From Pseudobacteriovorax antillogorgiicola (GTDB taxonomy: Bacteria > Bdellovibrionota_B > Oligoflexia > Oligoflexales > Oligoflexaceae), in the NCBI RefSeq assembly GCF_900177345.1, contig NZ_FWZT01000001.1:62001-126000 (forward strand): a stretch of DNA of 64,000 bases, in the 5' to 3' direction. This document shows, one piece after another, positions 36,918-46,689 of this stretch. A model generated the notes under the pieces. The model was not told the origin of the DNA, did not search any database, and saw only the letters and a list, made by a program, of their open reading frames with translations. The position numbers and the translations under genes are program-made. Position 1 is the first letter of the stretch. Every line of letters begins with the position of its first letter.

Positions 36918-37679
36918 TTACAGGTCAATGATCATTCCGTCGTAGGTTAGAGAGGCGAACGAGGGCAGCCTCTCCGAGTCTCTTAAGTACTCAACTTCAT
37001 GAGCCAAATGTGAGATATAGCCAGCCTTTACACCTAAATCTTCGAACAGTTTCAGGGTCTCGGGGATCACACTATGGGTATAATGCTCACCAAAGTGGAT
37101 ACCACTAGCCACCATCACATCGATCTTGCCTCTCCAGCTTTCGATCTGTTCTTCAGAAAATTTTTTAAAATCAGTAGCATAAGCAAATCGACCGATTTTG
37201 AAAGCGCATGAATCCACCGAGCCGTGATGCAGACGGGCCGTTTCGATTTTGAGCCCTTGAAAATCAAAGTCTCCGTCAATTATACGGACATCAACTTGGG
37301 GGACAGCACCCCGATAACCCGTGTCTTGAAACGCATAGGAAAAGCGCGTTTTTAGCTCCTCTTCGTATTCCGGCATCAGATATAATGGAAGTACGCTTTT
37401 GGAGTGAAACCAAAAAGCTCTCAGGTCATCGAAACCATGAGCATGGTCGGCATGCATGTGGGTATAAAATACGGCGTCGATGGCTTCGATACCTTGCCTG
37501 ACCACCTGGAGTCGCATTTCAGGGGCTGTATCGATGAGTATAGTCTTGCCATCAACTTCTACAGCTATCGACGCGCGGGTGCGCTTATTTTTAGGTTCTG
37601 TGCTTTGACAAACTTCGCAGTGGCAGCCAATAACCGGCACTCCAGCTGATGTTCCTGAACCTAAAATATGAACCCGCAT
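36918..37679 (-). CDS. PhnP-like metallo-beta-lactamase-fold hydrolase
   Basis: This 253-residue protein has the MBL fold with metal motif THMHADHAHGFDD (HxHxDH) near residue 75, further ligands HHGSVD and YATDFKKFS, and late His (SHLAHEVEYL). The N-terminal LGSGTSAGVPVIGCHCEVC includes the zinc-binding Cys pair and matches PhnP/PqqB-type phosphodiesterases. PhnP cleaves cyclic ribose phosphodiesters in phosphonate use, but no phn genes occur here, so the substrate is uncertain. It starts 7 bp after the recQ stop, with its ribosome site AAGGTGAGG overlapping recQ's end, so it is probably coupled to recQ. Confidence 0.88.
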   Translation of the reverse strand: MRVHILGSGTSAGVPVIGCHCEVCQSTEPKNKRTRASIAVEVDGKTILIDTAPEMRLQVVRQGIEAIDAVFYTHMHADHAHGFDDLRAFWFHSKSVLPLYLMPEYEEELKTRFSYAFQDTGYRGAVPQVDVRIIDGDFDFQGLKIETARLHHGSVDSCAFKIGRFAYATDFKKFSEEQIESWRGKIDVMVASGIHFGEHYTHSVIPETLKLFEDLGVKAGYISHLAHEVEYLRDSERLPSFASLTYDGMIIDL

Positions 37680-37686
37680 GACAACC

Positions 37687-39138
37687 TCACCTTAGAAAAT
37701 AGCGTTCGATATAGTATTCGGGATCTTGCTCACCCTTTGCCAAATCGTACATGGCCGATAACTTGTCGAGCTTCTCTTTTTTTCTTAGGTCGATATCTTG
37801 GCAAATACTTTCAATCCCCGGGTATTCACTCGCCAAGGCGACCATGACATCGATACCTTGATCTTCCCAAGACTCGCGAACAAAGTCCATGCGCTTCAAG
37901 ACGCGATCGCGATATAAGAAGTCGAGAACCATATCGATTTGATCCTCAGCTTGACCTGATCGTCTAGCCAAGTCAGACATTAGTTCAGCCTCACCAATAG
38001 CAGGCCGCCGCTCAAAAACCCCTTCGAGAAGGGCATAAACTTTCTTAAGAGACTCCATACTTGGGAACGACTTTTCGATCATAAACTTTTGAACGTGATA
38101 GTCCCGAGAGGTGAAGAATAAATAGCATCGTGCAGGACCTCCATCCCGTCCTGCTCGACCGATTTCTTGGGTATAGGCCTCGATAGACCCAGGCAGGCTT
38201 CCGTGAAATACAAAGCGAATATCTTTCTTATTGATCCCCATACCAAACGCCTTGGTGGCCACCATGACCCGAGCCTCACCATTCATAAAGCGATTAAATG
38301 CGTGAGTTCTTTGGTCCGCAAACATCCCCCCATGATAGCGATCCACGGCGACTCCCGCCTGACGCAAAGACTCATGAATCTCATTGCAAAGCTTCCGGGT
38401 AGCAACATAGACAATGCCTGAGCCCTCAGTCGACAGCACACCTTGTAACAGCGCGTTTTGGTGATCATCTCTGCTTCGCGAGCGAAACACCTTAAGGCTT
38501 AGATTCTTGCGAGCATATTGACTGGTGACAATCTTAGGCTTGGCCAGCTCTAATAAGTCTTGAATCTTCTGCCTGTCTTTGGCCGTGGCCGTGGCCGTTA
38601 AAGCGATCTTTGGCCCTTCATAAAAGTCTCTCAGATACGACGCGATCCGACTGTACTCAGGACGAAAGTCTAAGCCCCACTGATTCACGCAATGGGCCTC
38701 ATCAATAGCGACAAGCTGCAGATCAGTTTGGCTTAGAAAGTTTCGAAACGATGGTAGAGCCAGCCTCTCAGGGGACACAAAAAGAACCTGCACCTGGTCG
38801 CGACGAACAGTTTCTAACACGGCCGCCTTCTCTTCGGGAGATTGCATGCTATCGAGCGCCAAAGCCCTGATATTGCGCTTTTGCAGCTCCCGGATCTGAT
38901 CTCTCATAAGAGCGATCAAGGGAGAAATCACCAGCACCAACCCTGGTTTTAAAATCGCTGGAACCGTGTAGCAGAAAGACTTTCCTCCTGAGGTGGGAGC
39001 CACCACTAGGGTATCTCGGCCATCAATTACCGATTGAATGGCCTCTGCTTGAAAAGCTCGCAAACCCTCGACTCCAAGAGCTTTAAGAACTTCAGGGGAT
39101 TCAACGCTCACCTCGCTCGCACCAAAAACTTCGCTCAC
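37687..39138 (-). CDS. RecQ-family ATP-dependent DNA helicase, short form
   Basis: This 483-residue superfamily 2 helicase has Walker A APTSGGKS, the RecQ-type DEAHCVNQWGLDFRPEY, SAT-like LTATATA, and motifs V-VI GMGINKKDIRFVFHGSLP and QEIGRAGRDG. RecQ unwinds 3'-5' DNA in repair and recombination. It stops at YYIERYFLR, exactly where E. coli RecQ enters the zinc-binding Cys motif (YFGE...CG.CD.C). No zinc Cys cluster and no HRDC domain remain. The start is GTG 39138 with a weak upstream GGG. It is the first gene of a pair with the PhnP-like gene and is divergent from aspartokinase. Confidence 0.9.
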   Translation of the reverse strand: MSEVFGASEVSVESPEVLKALGVEGLRAFQAEAIQSVIDGRDTLVVAPTSGGKSFCYTVPAILKPGLVLVISPLIALMRDQIRELQKRNIRALALDSMQSPEEKAAVLETVRRDQVQVLFVSPERLALPSFRNFLSQTDLQLVAIDEAHCVNQWGLDFRPEYSRIASYLRDFYEGPKIALTATATAKDRQKIQDLLELAKPKIVTSQYARKNLSLKVFRSRSRDDHQNALLQGVLSTEGSGIVYVATRKLCNEIHESLRQAGVAVDRYHGGMFADQRTHAFNRFMNGEARVMVATKAFGMGINKKDIRFVFHGSLPGSIEAYTQEIGRAGRDGGPARCYLFFTSRDYHVQKFMIEKSFPSMESLKKVYALLEGVFERRPAIGEAELMSDLARRSGQAEDQIDMVLDFLYRDRVLKRMDFVRESWEDQGIDVMVALASEYPGIESICQDIDLRKKEKLDKLSAMYDLAKGEQDPEYYIERYFLR

Positions 39139-40450: not shown

Positions 40451-41266
40451 TCAGAGTTCAGCAAATACTCCGACGGAAAAACCAATATTCGTTGAATTAT
40501 GGAGCGACATCACATTCAGGCTCACCATGGGGTGATAGCCTGCATCCATCCGATAAAAGGCTGACACTTCCCCATGAATCAAGAGTACCGTGCCTTCTAC
40601 AATCCGATCGTTGAGGATATCACTCACACTGCCATCCACTCCCAAAGACACCGATGATTGCCCGAATCCTGCAACCCCCGATGCTCGCACAGAAAGTGGC
40701 TCATAGGGCCTAAAAATTTCTGACAGGCCACCTGCCACCGTAAAAACACTGATGTCGACGGTCGTATTGGTCACATCCAGAAGCTTGGCTGACGCTTCTC
40801 CGGAGCCGGTGATAAAACTGCTTTTTATAATAAAGTAGGTGAACTTTTTCCACTTCCACTGATACTGACCTTCGAAGCTAGTCGCCGTGATGCCATCACC
40901 AATGCCCATAGAATATATCCCCAAGTGCCCACCCCAGAAGCTCTCTTTCAAGCCTTTCATCACTTTGAAGAACTTTTCTGGTTGTTTAGCTTCCCGATCC
41001 CTTATGATCTCTGCACGATGGGACTTAAGAATCCGACCGTAGGCTGTTTTAATCTCAATGATGCGCAGGGTGCCGCGAATCTTCATCACCTCACCGATAG
41101 CCACCAAAAAGCCGTCACGGGCGAAGACCCCAATCTTATCCCCGATGGTAATCCGCCTGTTTTGAATCTCGCAGACTGACTGTTTGCGATTACATCGGAG
41201 CGTATCACCTTGGCTAAAACTGGAAGACGATACTAGGAGTGAGATGATTAATAGCAGACGTCTCAA
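40451..41266 (-). CDS. Exported protein, possible outer-membrane component
   Basis: This 271-residue protein of unknown function has a signal peptide (RRLLLIISLLVSSSSFSQG). An N-terminal unit follows with two Cys (TLRCNRKQSVCEI) that could form a disulfide, and a beta region (GDKIGVFARDGFLVAIGEVM). The C-terminal part has alternating strands rich in Gly, Ser and aromatics (SVSLGVDGSVS, FSVGVFAEL) like a small beta-barrel. I start it at TTG 41266, since GAGG lies 9 nt upstream and the signal begins there. The alternative upstream TTG at 41308 would add 14 residues without support. Confidence 0.65.
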   Translation of the reverse strand: MRRLLLIISLLVSSSSFSQGDTLRCNRKQSVCEIQNRRITIGDKIGVFARDGFLVAIGEVMKIRGTLRIIEIKTAYGRILKSHRAEIIRDREAKQPEKFFKVMKGLKESFWGGHLGIYSMGIGDGITATSFEGQYQWKWKKFTYFIIKSSFITGSGEASAKLLDVTNTTVDISVFTVAGGLSEIFRPYEPLSVRASGVAGFGQSSVSLGVDGSVSDILNDRIVEGTVLLIHGEVSAFYRMDAGYHPMVSLNVMSLHNSTNIGFSVGVFAEL

Positions 41267-41377
41267 AATTGGGTACCTCGCAACGTATCCCTGATGTGAA
41301 ACCAGCAAACGGAGAGTTTTATGGAACAGGCGTATACTTAAAGGTACCCCAAGGAGGAATTTGCAGTCAAGTTGGCT

Positions 41378-41836
41378 TCAGAGCTTGCCCTCGTCCTCCA
41401 ATTTTCGCAGACGTTCGCGAACTTCCTCATCGACTTCAAGGGCCGCGACATCTTCTGTCATGGCACCAGCATAGACTTGCATTGCTTTATTGTATATGAG
41501 GCGAGCTGGCCCCTTTTCCATCTTTCGCAGGATGATTGGGAGCGTCTGCCACTCTTCCGGCGCTTGCATTGCTTGAGACTCAACTTCTACAATCGCCAGC
41601 TGAAACTTTCGCCCAGAGGCATCCTGAAGCCCATTTTCAATAAAAGTATGCACCTTCACTGAATCGATACTCGGCAAGGAAAGAGCCTTCTTCACCGCCC
41701 GCAGCACCTCTTCCAGCTTGTTAGCATCACGTTCCATTTTAGTTTGAAAGCCATGAAACTCACCGCCGTCGGTCGGAAATCTGAGCAAATCGCGATGGTC
41801 ACGACACCCGACAAGCAAAATAAAGTCTGTATCCAT
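41378..41836 (-). CDS. Unknown protein after the MglA-like GTPase
   Basis: This 152-residue protein has no signal or membrane span and is probably cytoplasmic. It does not look like MglB/Roadblock, the usual partner of MglA, and I cannot name a family. The sequence has mixed alpha/beta stretches (FILLVGCRDHRDLLRF, FQLAIVEVES) and a very charged C-terminal helix (EVRERLRKLEDEGKL). It starts 12 bp after the GTPase and probably shares its transcript with dnaX. A role as a client or regulator of the GTPase is inferred from the context alone. Confidence 0.6.
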   Translation of the reverse strand: MDTDFILLVGCRDHRDLLRFPTDGGEFHGFQTKMERDANKLEEVLRAVKKALSLPSIDSVKVHTFIENGLQDASGRKFQLAIVEVESQAMQAPEEWQTLPIILRKMEKGPARLIYNKAMQVYAGAMTEDVAALEVDEEVRERLRKLEDEGKL

Positions 41837-41848
41837 GGAAGGCTTCTC

Positions 41849-42427
41849 CTAGGGCTGTGCTAGTTGATCAAGTATTTTCTGAGCGACCTGATGAACTGTT
41901 TCCATAGTCCCTACAGAGTTGATGGCCGAACTTTCAATGTCCGTTGTGCCCCCTGGGTTCAACTCATGGCGCAAGACATCAAGGGAAACAGCTTCAGGAT
42001 GGTCTCGTTTGTTATACTGTAAAACCCGTGGCAGCGTGAGCATGTTATAACCCTCGCGACTCAGAAGCTCCTTCGTTTCGAGCCAGTTTTTAAGATTTTC
42101 CCTCATAGAACTTAAGCGGCTATCGAAAACAAAAACAAACCCATCGAGACCCTTTAACATTACTGAATGAACAGTTTCATAAAGTGGATTAGCTGGAAGT
42201 GTGTAGAGGTGGAGCTTGACATGAAACTCTTTGAGATGCCCCAAGCTGATAGGAATAAATTCAAAAAAGGGTTGCTCATCAGCATCTAATTCAAATCGAC
42301 CCTGGTGCAACTTAGTTTGGCTTTGCTGAAAAATTGAAGCAAAGTTAGCCGTTTTACCAGCACCCTTGGGTCCAAAATATAGAACCTTGCAGTTTATTTC
42401 CTTGGTTTCCAAGTTGGTAAAGGCCAT
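41849..42427 (-). CDS. MglA-like small GTPase with altered catalytic residues
   Basis: This 192-residue protein aligns end to end with MglA, a Ras-like polarity GTPase. P-loop FGPKGAGKTAN (residues 18-28), FFEFIPISLG, HLYTLPAN (switch II), GLDGFVFVFDS and G4 QYNKRD are present. Two catalytic positions differ: the intrinsic Arg (MglA R53) aligns with Glu51, and the switch II Gln (Q82) with Asn80, with Gly before it replaced by Ala79. Nucleotide binding should be possible, but hydrolysis is probably poor. It lies 15 bp after dnaX and 12 bp before an unknown gene, so all three should be one transcript. Direct evidence for a polarity role is lacking. Confidence 0.88.
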   Translation of the reverse strand: MAFTNLETKEINCKVLYFGPKGAGKTANFASIFQQSQTKLHQGRFELDADEQPFFEFIPISLGHLKEFHVKLHLYTLPANPLYETVHSVMLKGLDGFVFVFDSRLSSMRENLKNWLETKELLSREGYNMLTLPRVLQYNKRDHPEAVSLDVLRHELNPGGTTDIESSAINSVGTMETVHQVAQKILDQLAQP

Positions 42428-42442
42428 GACGAATTCGCTCCA

Positions 42443-44500
42443 CTAGACATCTAGCATATCGATTCCGTCTATCTTACCACCAAAAACGGAAAGTGCCTCC
42501 TGGGTTATCGGATGTTGGCGCAGTTCTTCGAACAGCTCCTGCCGAGCTGCCTCTTCTTCTTTCTGCCTGACTTGGAGCAGAGATTCTGGGGCTGGAGCCT
42601 CATCAGAACTTTCCTGATTGACGCTGGACTCTTGGCTTTCTACCAACAGCTCCCCGGAAAAGCCAAATAACTCGCGAATCCCATCCACAACTCTCTTGCG
42701 ATGCTCTTGGTGGAGAAGCTTCGCTCCAGCCATGCTGCTGGGATCAACAGCGACGCGAATGGTGTCCACTGAGTAGGCCAGTGGGACAGTTTCCTCTAAA
42801 ATACGCCCCTGAAGCGGCATCTTTGATTTCCAGATGTCAACGAGAGCCCGCCAACTTTCAGGAAAGCTCGCCGCCCCCCTCTGATCCGGCACTGGCTCTG
42901 GGGCAGCCGCTTGGGGTGCAGATGGTTGATCCGTTGTTAGCTTAGGCTCTGCTGAAGCAGCAATTTTTTGAAGGACCGATGATATAGCCTTCTTTCTAGG
43001 TGGCGGCGCATCTGAGCTTGGAGGGCCCGACGCCGGCGCTGCCTCGGCCTCTTTTTGCATCACCAACTTGGAGGATGGCTCAAATTGTGAATTGGCACGA
43101 GCTGCTCCAGATTGTACTTCGCTATTCCTCTGAGGCACTATAGGCTCTTTAGCAGGGGAAGGTGATGGCGCTGGAGCAGTGTCGATGGGAGCTGCAGGAC
43201 GGGTTTGTTTAGATTCGTCCTGAGCAAAGGCACTAGCCCAGCGTTGCTTCAGGCTCGCGCCAGAAGACGCTCCAGAGCGGTTCCCAGTCCCAGAAGTATC
43301 TTCTGCTGACTGCCTCGGCCGTGAGCCCTGTTGGCTTTCCGGTTTTGCAGGGCTAGAGCCCTTACCCTCAGCAAGCTGCTTGAGATCATCCAGAGAAGGC
43401 AAGCCAGGGTCAAAGCACCACTCAAGACTGTAATTTTCTAAAATAAAGCGATCTAGTTCCGAGCCATCCAAGTCTTTGCGACATTTAACAAGGAACCTAA
43501 AAATCCTGTTCAAGTCGAAGCTGGGCGATTGATCAGCAACTCTATAAAGATGCTCTAGCTCTGTAGGTGCAAGCCCCAAGAGTTGTGTATCGAGAGCATC
43601 GAGCCCCAAGTCCTTCAAAACGAAACCATGGCGACAAAACTTAGCCACCTCTTCCACCGCATCATCAAGTGGAATGCCACGCTCATCCCACTGATCTATA
43701 ATTTTAATGATCCCGTGGCCATTGCGTTCCACTAGGGCTTGGATATAGTCGATATAGGATTGAGAAGACGCTGCATTGACCAAACCTTTGAGAGAGGCAG
43801 CCGTCACCTGACCATCGCCAAGGGCAATCACTTGATCCAAAAAGGTTAAGGCATCCCGCATGGAGCCACGACCTTCCTTCGCCACTGTGACAATCGCGTG
43901 ATCCTCAAACGCCACTTTCTCTTGATTCAGAATTTCTTTGAGGCGGTCGGTAATGGTTGCCAAGCTCAAACGCTTCAAATGAAAGGTTTGGCAACGACTG
44001 AGAATCGTCTCGGGGACCTTTTGCAGCTCTGTAGTTGCAAAAGTGAACACCACATGCTGCGGCGGCTCTTCTAATGTCTTGAGCAAGGCATTGAAGGCAC
44101 TCTGCGACAGCATATGCACTTCATCGATAATGTAAATCTTATAGGGAGAGCGCTGTGGAACGTATTCCAAGGTTTCTTGCAGGGCTCTAACATCATCGAC
44201 ACTGGTGTTGGATGCGCCATCAATCTCTAGAACGTCTTCGTGATTACCGTCGTTAATTGCAAGGCAGCTCTCGCATTGATTGCACGGCTCAGCTGTAGGT
44301 CCTTGCTCGCAATTCAAAGCCTTAGCATAAAGCCGCGCTGTGGTTGTCTTGCCGATACCACGGACCCCTGAGAAGATCACTCCCTGAGGAATTCGCTTCA
44401 AACGAATAGCATTGGCGAGGGCTTTGGTGATTGCATCTTGACCAACCATATCTTGGAAATGGCGAGGCCGATACTTGCGGGCTAAGGACTGGTAAGACAA
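42443..44500 (-). CDS. dnaX: DNA polymerase III subunit tau/gamma
   Basis: DnaX forms the clamp-loader ATPase core and, through its tau part, couples the replisome. The AAA+ module starts SYQSLARKYRPRHFQDMVGQ, with P-loop GVRGIGKTTTARL, a four-Cys zinc motif in CEQGPTAEPCNQCESC, and DEVHMLS. The C-terminal part (from ~residue 340) is long, proline/serine-rich and variable. I choose TTG 44500, since GGGAG lies 6 nt before it; an upstream in-frame start at 44617 would read through the SRP RNA. I find no good slippery heptamer for the short gamma form. It is placed right after the ffs gene. Confidence 0.95.
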   Translation of the reverse strand: MSYQSLARKYRPRHFQDMVGQDAITKALANAIRLKRIPQGVIFSGVRGIGKTTTARLYAKALNCEQGPTAEPCNQCESCLAINDGNHEDVLEIDGASNTSVDDVRALQETLEYVPQRSPYKIYIIDEVHMLSQSAFNALLKTLEEPPQHVVFTFATTELQKVPETILSRCQTFHLKRLSLATITDRLKEILNQEKVAFEDHAIVTVAKEGRGSMRDALTFLDQVIALGDGQVTAASLKGLVNAASSQSYIDYIQALVERNGHGIIKIIDQWDERGIPLDDAVEEVAKFCRHGFVLKDLGLDALDTQLLGLAPTELEHLYRVADQSPSFDLNRIFRFLVKCRKDLDGSELDRFILENYSLEWCFDPGLPSLDDLKQLAEGKGSSPAKPESQQGSRPRQSAEDTSGTGNRSGASSGASLKQRWASAFAQDESKQTRPAAPIDTAPAPSPSPAKEPIVPQRNSEVQSGAARANSQFEPSSKLVMQKEAEAAPASGPPSSDAPPPRKKAISSVLQKIAASAEPKLTTDQPSAPQAAAPEPVPDQRGAASFPESWRALVDIWKSKMPLQGRILEETVPLAYSVDTIRVAVDPSSMAGAKLLHQEHRKRVVDGIRELFGFSGELLVESQESSVNQESSDEAPAPESLLQVRQKEEEAARQELFEELRQHPITQEALSVFGGKIDGIDMLDV

Positions 44501-44520
44501 CGAACTCTCCCGAAAACGAT

Positions 44521-44646
<126 letters not shown>

Positions 44647-44674: not shown

Positions 44675-44764
44675 TGGCGGAGAGAGAGGGATTCGAACCC
44701 TCGAAGCAGTTTCCCACTTACACGCGTTCCAGGCGTGCGCCTTCAACCACTCGGCCACCTCTCC
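44675..44764 (-). tRNA. tRNA-Ser (anticodon GGA)
   Basis: A class II tRNA of 90 nt. Acceptor GGAGAGG pairs with UCUCUCC (one G-U). The anticodon stem CACGC/GCGUG holds loop CUGGAAC, anticodon GGA. A long variable arm (GUGGGAAACUGCUUC region) follows, then T arm GUUCGAAU, discriminator G and encoded CCA (complement of 44675-44677). It is upstream of ffs and dnaX. Confidence 0.96.
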
Positions 44765-44922: not shown

Positions 44923-46689
44923 ATGAAAATTTTTACCTGCACACTCCTCCTCCTAGGAATCACATCCTGCGCTCATAATATTATCCAAGGAGAGCCCCTT
45001 GGCACCCATCCGCCACGAGGAATCAACCCCGAAAGGGACGCCTACATAGCTGATGGTAAAAAAGGCATGGTAGCTACTGCACACCCCCTCGCAACCCAGG
45101 CCGGGGTGGAGATACTAAAGCTAGGTGGCAATGCCGTAGATGCTGCCGTTGCCGTATCCATGGCAATCTCTGTGGTAAGACCTCAGTCTACTGGAATTGG
45201 GGGAGGGGGCTTTCTCCTTCACTATGACAGCAATACCACCGATGTTGTTGCCTATGACTTTCGGGAGGTCGCTCCGCTTAAAGCTAGTCGGGACATGTTT
45301 CTCGATAAGGATAAGAACCCAAAAGATTTCGTCTACAAGAAAAAGACGGTTCCGAACGCTTCTGTCAATGGCCATCTTTCAGTAGGGGTTCCTGGGCTTA
45401 TTCGCGGCCTCTGGGACATTCATCGAATCCACGGCTCCCTACCATGGAATAGGCTCGTAGAGCCAGCGATCCGCTTGGCTGAAGACGGCTTCAAAGTCTA
45501 CCCTAACCTTGCTAAAGCCATCGAGAGGAGAGCCCAGGTTCTTCAGGCGTTCCCTGCCACAGCTAAGATCTTTTTTCCTGATGGCAAGCCTTTGAAAGCG
45601 GGAGAAGTCCTGATCCAAGCCGACCTCGCCAAAACCCTCAAGGCCATCAGAGATAACGGCGACAAAGGCTTCTACAGCGGCTGGGTTGCAGAGAAGATTA
45701 TTGCTGAAATGAAAGACGGCGGCGGCTTGATCACACAAAAAGACCTGGACAGCTATAAGATGGTGGTCCGGCAGGCCATTCAATCAAGCTTTCGCAACTT
45801 TGAACTAGCTTCCATGCCACCTCCATCTTCTGGCGGCGTTCATATCGCTCAGATGTTGAATATTTTAGAGGGCACCGAGATGGGAAAAATCCCTCTGGAT
45901 TCCCCTCGTTACATACAGCTACTCGTGGAAAGCATGCGCCGCGCTTATGCAGATCGCGCGAAGTACCTGGGTGACCCCGACTTTGTTTCAATTCCGGTGA
46001 AAGGCCTCATCAGCAAGGAATATGCGGCCGCCCTACGGAAGGAGCTACCACTTGACAAAGCCGGCGACTCGAAAGTCATTGGCGCAGGAAACCCGGTTCC
46101 CTATGAGTCTCCATCAACAACCCACTTCAGCATCGTTGATCAATGGGGCAACGGCGTTTCATCCACACAAACGATCAACTATACCTTCGGATCTGGGGTC
46201 GTTGCAGCAGGCACTGGCATTCTACTAAACGACGAGATGGACGACTTCTCCAAAAAGCCTGGCGTTCCCAATGCCTTTGGGCTCGTGGGTAGCAAGGCAA
46301 ACGAGGTTCAACCGAACAAAAGAATGCTGTCCTCCATGTCGCCATCATTTATCTTTCAAGGCTCCAGGTTGGTTGGCATTGTCGGGTCGCCAGGAGGCTC
46401 ACGCATTATCAATGCAACGTTCCAGACCATTCTTCATCGCTATGTCTACGGGATGAGCCCCGAAGATGCTGTTCATGGCTACCGCATCCACCATCAGTGG
46501 TTGCCAGATATGGTATTTGTAGAGAACTCTTTCTTGCCTCTGCAGACCTCCAAAAGCTTGGAGGAGCTAGGCTATGATATCAAATCAACCCCTTATCCTA
46601 TTGGCGATATTCAAGCCGTCTTTCGAGACGGGGACGAGTGGATTGGGGTGAGTGATACTCGTGGTGATGGCCAGCCTATGGGCTACTGA
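44923..46689 (+). CDS. ggt: Gamma-glutamyltransferase, predicted lipoprotein
   Basis: Ggt hydrolyses or transfers the gamma-glutamyl group of glutathione and related compounds. It is an N-terminal nucleophile enzyme that cleaves itself. The catalytic Thr is in ESPSTTHFSIVDQWGNG (near residue 400). The small subunit has GSPGGSRIINATFQ and the N-terminal part GGNAVDAAVAVSMAI. At 588 residues the length is normal. The signal peptide has a lipobox-like LLLLGITSC, giving a lipidated Cys at about residue 16; most bacterial Ggt proteins are soluble periplasmic or secreted, so membrane anchoring is a difference. It ends just before a strong 30-bp palindromic terminator shared with sucA. Confidence 0.95.
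   Translation: MKIFTCTLLLLGITSCAHNIIQGEPLGTHPPRGINPERDAYIADGKKGMVATAHPLATQAGVEILKLGGNAVDAAVAVSMAISVVRPQSTGIGGGGFLLHYDSNTTDVVAYDFREVAPLKASRDMFLDKDKNPKDFVYKKKTVPNASVNGHLSVGVPGLIRGLWDIHRIHGSLPWNRLVEPAIRLAEDGFKVYPNLAKAIERRAQVLQAFPATAKIFFPDGKPLKAGEVLIQADLAKTLKAIRDNGDKGFYSGWVAEKIIAEMKDGGGLITQKDLDSYKMVVRQAIQSSFRNFELASMPPPSSGGVHIAQMLNILEGTEMGKIPLDSPRYIQLLVESMRRAYADRAKYLGDPDFVSIPVKGLISKEYAAALRKELPLDKAGDSKVIGAGNPVPYESPSTTHFSIVDQWGNGVSSTQTINYTFGSGVVAAGTGILLNDEMDDFSKKPGVPNAFGLVGSKANEVQPNKRMLSSMSPSFIFQGSRLVGIVGSPGGSRIINATFQTILHRYVYGMSPEDAVHGYRIHHQWLPDMVFVENSFLPLQTSKSLEELGYDIKSTPYPIGDIQAVFRDGDEWIGVSDTRGDGQPMGY

Follow-up and report, generated by a model that had tools for sequence, protein, structure and literature searches.

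We examined the genes that follow dnaX in a 64,000-nucleotide stretch of the Pseudobacteriovorax antillogorgiicola genome (contig NZ_FWZT01000001.1, positions 62,001 to 126,000; hereafter the window), which include a derivative of the GTPase MglA. The whole set lies on the minus strand. The dnaX gene, for DNA polymerase III tau/gamma (42443-44500; TIGR02397, E = 9.6e-125), is followed by genes for a 192-amino acid MglA-derived GTPase (41849-42427), a 152-amino acid protein that we call the partner (41378-41836), and a third conserved protein of 285 amino acids (40451-41308, from a mechanically assigned TTG start). Upstream of dnaX lies its ancestral neighbor, the small bacterial signal recognition particle (SRP) RNA (44534-44630; Rfam RF00169, Bacteria_small_SRP, 69.2 bits). 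The mechanically called open reading frame (ORF) of dnaX, 42443-44617, begins within this RNA; in the interval 44498-44617 the TTG at 44500 (LSYQSLARKYRP) is the likely start, 33 bp from the SRP RNA. Gaps of 15 bp separate dnaX from the GTPase gene, 12 bp the GTPase from the partner, and 69 bp the partner from the mechanical start of the third gene. Thus the initial annotation was right to describe dnaX, the GTPase and the 152-amino acid protein as one tight set, including the 12-bp gap. From this spacing we infer that the three genes are cotranscribed. A promoter scan of the window stayed at chance level, and a terminator scan gave eight hits versus 4.4 ± 2.4, none of them clear between genes of the dnaX set.

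The window GTPase matches Myxococcus xanthus MglA (6hjh) over its full length (phmmer E = 3.2e-40), which together with the shared dnaX neighborhood points to common descent. Its P-loop (GPKGAGKT) and NKRD motif are intact. The alignment bears out the earlier description of an MglA-family GTPase without the catalytic Arg and Gln: E51 stands at the position of R53 and N80 at that of Q82. Further replacements are G21 to K21, T54 to Q52, and G81 to A79, and the G3 motif reads TLPAN, not TVPGQ. According to a study of the M. xanthus proteins (PMC6876712), MglB brings Arg53 and Thr54 of MglA to the active site, and in GDP-bound MglA the switch 2 residues Pro80-Gly81 obstruct the gamma-phosphate site. 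In Wuichet 2014 (PMC4316618), Group 1 of the prokaryotic Ras-superfamily GTPases, to which MglA belongs, is said to carry the G2 arginine without exception and TVPGQ as its G3 motif.

We tabulated these positions in 46 distinct GTPases (47 rows) from the phylum of the window, Bdellovibrionota_B, and in 76 canonical MglA proteins; canonical counts, here and below, are among the matches listed. Left out of the former were L142 (frame not recovered), L148 (cut), L150 (from the genome of L029), and G056, and of the latter L096 and L113, both cut at the start. G81 occurs in 0/46 own-phylum proteins versus 76/76 canonical ones, G21 in 0/46 versus 68/76, and Q82 in 2/46 versus 75/76. Losses at R53 (present in 10/46 versus 76/76) and T54 (16/46 versus 76/76) are less complete. 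P80 is kept in 41 of the 46. The nucleotide-binding motifs are nearly always retained: G19 in 46/46, K25 in 44/46, the following T/S in 45/46, and N141 and D144 in 45/46 each, with His replacing K142 in 12/46. Judged from this alignment, the switch residues were lost across the whole family and not in one gene alone. Since nine of the ten Arg53 carriers belong to a sister family outside the window's own order, the glycine and glutamine losses probably preceded that of Arg53. A quick tree, in which branches are long, puts the 47 own-phylum rows on a single side of one branch (Shimodaira-Hasegawa-like approximate likelihood ratio test, 100). In the same tree the MglA of L061, a record titled Comamonas sp. 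KCTC 72670, falls close to that of M. xanthus with a branch length of zero, and the title or assembly may be mislabelled.

Slow GTP hydrolysis had been proposed for this GTPase from known MglA chemistry. The loss of the catalytic residues is real; because it is family-wide and includes G81 and G21, gone in 46/46, it points past slow hydrolysis, towards no normal switching.

The GTPase genes are under strong purifying selection. In the four close pairs with usable synonymous divergence (dS), the ratio of nonsynonymous to synonymous divergence (dN/dS) is 0.025, 0.033, 0.010, and 0.032, lower than in the dnaX part in three of these pairs (0.073, 0.066, and 0.087); in four further pairs GTPase dS is saturated and gives no value. 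The partner is likewise constrained, with dN/dS of 0.059-0.093 over the same four pairs. One might suppose that the pair is decaying and that the GTPase is a relic heading for loss, as the gene goes undetected in six of the 43 genomes of the window's order and the copy in G016 (L149) no longer has a P-loop (GK[ST] is missing). Such decay is very improbable given the GTPase dN/dS of 0.010-0.033, and none of the listed GTPase matches contains an internal stop. G016 keeps the order dnaX-GTPase-partner-third gene even though its GTPase has no P-loop, which favors a structural over an enzymatic role. A link between the GTPase and type IV pili was considered and rejected, since PilT-family matches do not track the GTPase: PilT is above cut-off in all six order genomes without a detected GTPase, and of the eight genomes with no PilT above cut-off, seven retain the GTPase.

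The position of the GTPase gene behind dnaX has a likely ancestral explanation. A search for MglA loci yielded at least 80, two of the window's kind (L051 and L052) and 78 canonical. Fifty-eight of the canonical loci extend 4400 nt or more beyond the start of mglA on its upstream side, and profiles place there, on the same strand, mglB in 48, recR in 36, ybaB in 29, and dnaX in 27; all four genes are present in 18 of the 58. Where scanned, the SRP RNA precedes dnaX in seven of 11 canonical loci and in 3/3 loci of the window's kind. SRP RNA, dnaX, ybaB, recR, mglB, and mglA are therefore neighbors in Myxococcota and Bdellovibrionota, and ybaB and recR are indeed the usual genes after dnaX, as the initial annotation stated. 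Milner 2014 (PMC3983030) likewise reports that dnaX, recR, mglA, and a DUF149 gene are syntenic across deltaproteobacteria and that Bdellovibrio has lost mglB.

The three genes expected between dnaX and mglA are absent by profile search from our own-phylum sample of 58 genomes, all of a single class. YbaB was found in 0/58 (8/14 control genomes positive), RecR in 0/58 (9/14), and the Roadblock domain of MglB (PF03259) in 0/56 (3/14). The Roadblock search misses divergent MglB, being positive in six of nine outgroup genomes and blank in G061 though its locus L120 has an MglB-like ORF, so that "no recognisable MglB" is the fair wording for this phylum. RecO was also found in 0/54 own-phylum genomes (8/14 controls positive); with RecR at 0/58 and RecF not searched, the lineage as a whole may lack the RecFOR loading pathway. 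We found no literature on RecR in Silvanigrella or RecFOR in Oligoflexia.

Because the longer operon occurs in Myxococcota and Bdellovibrionota, the adjacency of dnaX and the mglA descendant looks like a remnant left after ybaB, recR, and mglB went, and no link to the replisome is needed. Most simply, ybaB-recR-mglB would have dropped out from between the two genes, perhaps by a single deletion rather than several losses. The initial annotation had instead envisaged a long-lived GTP switch that, by way of dnaX, ties a marker of the cell pole to the replisome. In favor of such coupling, the GTPase gene sits next to dnaX in 27 of the 37 order loci, but the adjacency is inherited from the longer operon, the GTPases of the sister family lie away from dnaX, and the window DnaX (TIGR02397) looks ordinary. 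We consider this coupling very improbable and do not retain the functional link.

Synteny in relatives, whose absence the initial annotation had named as a refutation, is conserved within the order. Our set comprised 49 loci, one per genome, drawn from 50 genomes with a GTPase match: 37 of the window's own order and 12 of the sister family. In 27 of the 49, all among the 37, dnaX lies directly upstream of the GTPase (28 if G004 is included, whose truncated upstream ORF ends like dnaX); the partner lies directly downstream in 30, again all among the 37. Neither gene adjoins the GTPase in any of the 12 sister-family loci. Two of the seven order loci with no partner beside the GTPase, G022 and G035, end 196 and 3 bases past it, too soon for adjacency to be visible. 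The gene before the GTPase in the sister-family loci read appears, from its sequence, to be manA-like. Sister-family loci L131, L134, L137-L140, and L143-L147 have N-H-x-D in place of N-K-x-D in a GTPase behind such a gene, with no partner detected.

The partner is restricted to the order: its profile matches 36 of the 58 own-phylum genomes, 36/43 in the order and 0/15 elsewhere. No Pfam, NCBIfam, or PDB-sequence family fits it, and a profile built from the partner alignment found nothing of note among PDB sequences. The best Pfam match, PMT_C2 (20.3 bits, cut-off 27), and dermonecrotic-toxin matches were dismissed as chance, being below cut-off and seen in one of 16 family members. A Roadblock identity was rejected as well, with no Robl_LC7 match in the window protein or the 16 members, in agreement with the earlier statement that this conserved protein is not MglB-like.

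An AlphaFold2 model of the partner made from three sequences (predicted local distance difference test score, pLDDT, 81.6; predicted template modeling score 0.71) has the strand and helix order b-b-b-a-b-b-a-a. In Foldseek, nearly all listed matches belong to Nudix enzymes or to domains of Nudix fold (best E = 2.7e-05); MUTYH, CPSF5, and mitoribosomal chains among them presumably also hold Nudix-like domains. Nudix structures also make up most of the VIA-align ranking, in which the best match is a Caenorhabditis elegans diadenosine tetraphosphate (Ap4A) hydrolase (Z = 10.9, 3.0 Å, 117 residues). The Nudix box GX5EX7REUXEEXGU is absent from all 37 partner rows (34 distinct proteins and three repeats), RExxEE occurring once, in L132, outside the matching Nudix helix, and none of 16 family members has a NUDIX Pfam match. 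The partner is thus a predicted Nudix-fold protein, and the motif excludes a Nudix enzyme. It resembles Nudix hydrolases and sensors (RppH, Ap4A hydrolases, NrtR, AraR) in its predicted fold, with Z up to 10.9, but differs from them in lacking the Nudix box and in a sequence identity of about 4-17% among listed matches, and enzyme function is not expected.

The most conserved partner residues, counted over the 37 rows, are R104 (30), R112 (35), Y115 (30), A118 (35), Q120 (37), and G124 (35). They fall in the last two helices, which are the likely contact surface. This distribution bears on the possibility that the partner is a small-molecule sensor, whose degenerate Nudix pocket would bind a nucleotide or nucleotide-sugar and signal to the GTPase. 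The Nudix-domain sensors NrtR and AraR are among its structural matches; the conservation, however, is C-terminal and not in the Nudix helix, so that we think a sensor unlikely.

The same residues raise a different possibility, namely, that the GTPase still cycles and that the partner is a new type of GTPase-activating protein (GAP) that provides the missing catalytic residues, an Arg and a Gln, in trans, in the manner of TBC-domain GAPs acting on Rab. The GTPase has lost precisely these two residues, the partner keeps R112 (35/37), R104 (30/37), and Q120 (37/37), and the two genes adjoin. Against this, G81 and G21 are likewise gone in all 46 GTPases, and in Ras loss of the equivalent glycines impairs switching or GAP action. 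G016 retains a partner-family protein with Q120 despite the loss of the P-loop from its GTPase, G026 has a partner and no detected GTPase, and the sister family lost G81 and Q82 with no partner detected. A partner GAP is accordingly quite unlikely in our estimation. Its strongest form, in which Arg and Gln were relocated into a Nudix-fold neighbor to give a new, TBC-like, dual-finger class of bacterial GAP and leave MglA unable to hydrolyze GTP alone, we regard as a long shot.

The reading that we favor, at about even chances, is that the GTPase is a non-cycling, nucleotide-bound descendant of MglA, a scaffold in complex with a catalytically dead Nudix-fold partner. In an ancestor, the SRP RNA-dnaX-ybaB-recR-mglB-mglA operon would have lost ybaB, recR, and mglB. 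MglA, left with no GAP, would then have lost the residues for cycling, G21, G81, and nearly always Q82 throughout the family, and R53 and often T54 in the window's order. With its nucleotide pocket retained, it may have ceased to hydrolyze GTP and to switch, and become a constitutive nucleotide-bound scaffold. The window's order would also have gained a dedicated Nudix-fold partner lacking the catalytic motif, usually encoded directly behind the GTPase, and the two proteins would act as one complex.

Cooccurrence within the order is in keeping with a complex: 35 of the 43 genomes have both genes, five neither, two the GTPase only (G032 and G008), and one the partner only (G026), giving a Fisher P of 1.3e-4, although the counts are non-independent by descent and a single assembly gap removes both adjoining genes (G042 is 66% complete). 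With dnaX taken into account, the distances of GTPase and partner still correlate (partial 0.56; 21 loci, including L012 with a presumed dnaX). This is weak and weakly specific evidence for their interaction, because dnaX too correlates with both (GTPase-dnaX given partner 0.39; partner-dnaX given GTPase 0.43). Besides these limits, several observations weigh against a non-cycling scaffold: the proteins that keep Arg53 or Thr54, the MglB-like sequences that the Roadblock search overlooks, the genomes G032 and G008, whose GTPase has no detected partner, the sister family, in which the partner profile finds none, and the genomes G011, G017, G018, and G022, where partner and GTPase lie on different contigs. 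Moreover, some GTPases function without the catalytic Arg and Gln, and residue loss is no proof of an inactive enzyme.

The window GTPase shares with Group 1 MglA (Myxococcus, Thermus) full-length homology, the P-loop, NKxD, and the old operon position after dnaX, and most own-phylum GTPases keep the T-x-P of the G3 region; they differ in lacking the G3 Gly and Gln, usually the Arg, and any recognized MglB. Like the Roadblock GAPs, the partner is a small operon-mate of an MglA protein, but it has a predicted Nudix fold and is encoded downstream of the GTPase, whereas MglB is upstream. A Nudix-fold domain also occurs beside a small GTPase in eukaryotic KRIT1, a protein that binds Rap1; there it is the FERM domain, not the Nudix domain, that does the binding, and the system is unrelated.

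A close precedent is the Bdellovibrio MglA Bd3734, for which Milner 2014 (PMC3983030) reports loss of mglB, Ser at residue 21, read by its authors as GTP-locking, and a dnaX-recR-mglA neighborhood. In contrast to the window's lineage, Bdellovibrio keeps recR and the DUF149 gene, its MglA is 64% identical to that of M. xanthus, and the reported partner is a tetratricopeptide repeat protein (PMC3983030). All of our 76 canonical proteins, the Bdellovibrionota MglAs among them, keep Arg53 and Gly81. The MglA family and an MglB-less, possibly GTP-locked MglA are thus already known; we found no description of lineage-wide switch-residue loss with a Nudix-fold operon partner in the titles and abstract starts of open-licence literature. 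Among bacterial Ras-like switches MglA is the model, and a lineage in which strong selection maintains it without GAP or switch residues would test which roles MglA has besides switching, and would extend to a whole lineage the Bdellovibrio idea that polarity control can run without cycling. The Nudix-fold neighbor would represent a novel type of partner for a G protein.

The third gene follows the partner in relatives too and has no Pfam match. Its low-confidence model (pLDDT 59.3) opens with a helix and contains a small beta domain and roughly eight long strands, with weak Foldseek matches to OmpA, NspA, and OmpX and V-ATPase rows also listed. A probable signal peptide, an N-terminal beta domain, and a probable outer-membrane barrel of about eight strands suggest an envelope protein, in a model too weak to trust for the outer-membrane assignment. 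On the other side of the set, a tRNA-Ser (GGA) gene (44675-44764, minus strand) is the upstream neighbor of the SRP RNA, and a gamma-glutamyltranspeptidase gene (44923-46689, plus strand; PF01019, 582 bits) is divergent from the dnaX set. Farther downstream on the minus strand are genes for a RecQ-like helicase (37687-39138), which has Pfam support, and a metallo-beta-lactamase-like protein (36918-37679). Genes that look, from their sequences, like their counterparts lie near the module in relatives, both in L133 and one of the two in L023, L182, and L187.

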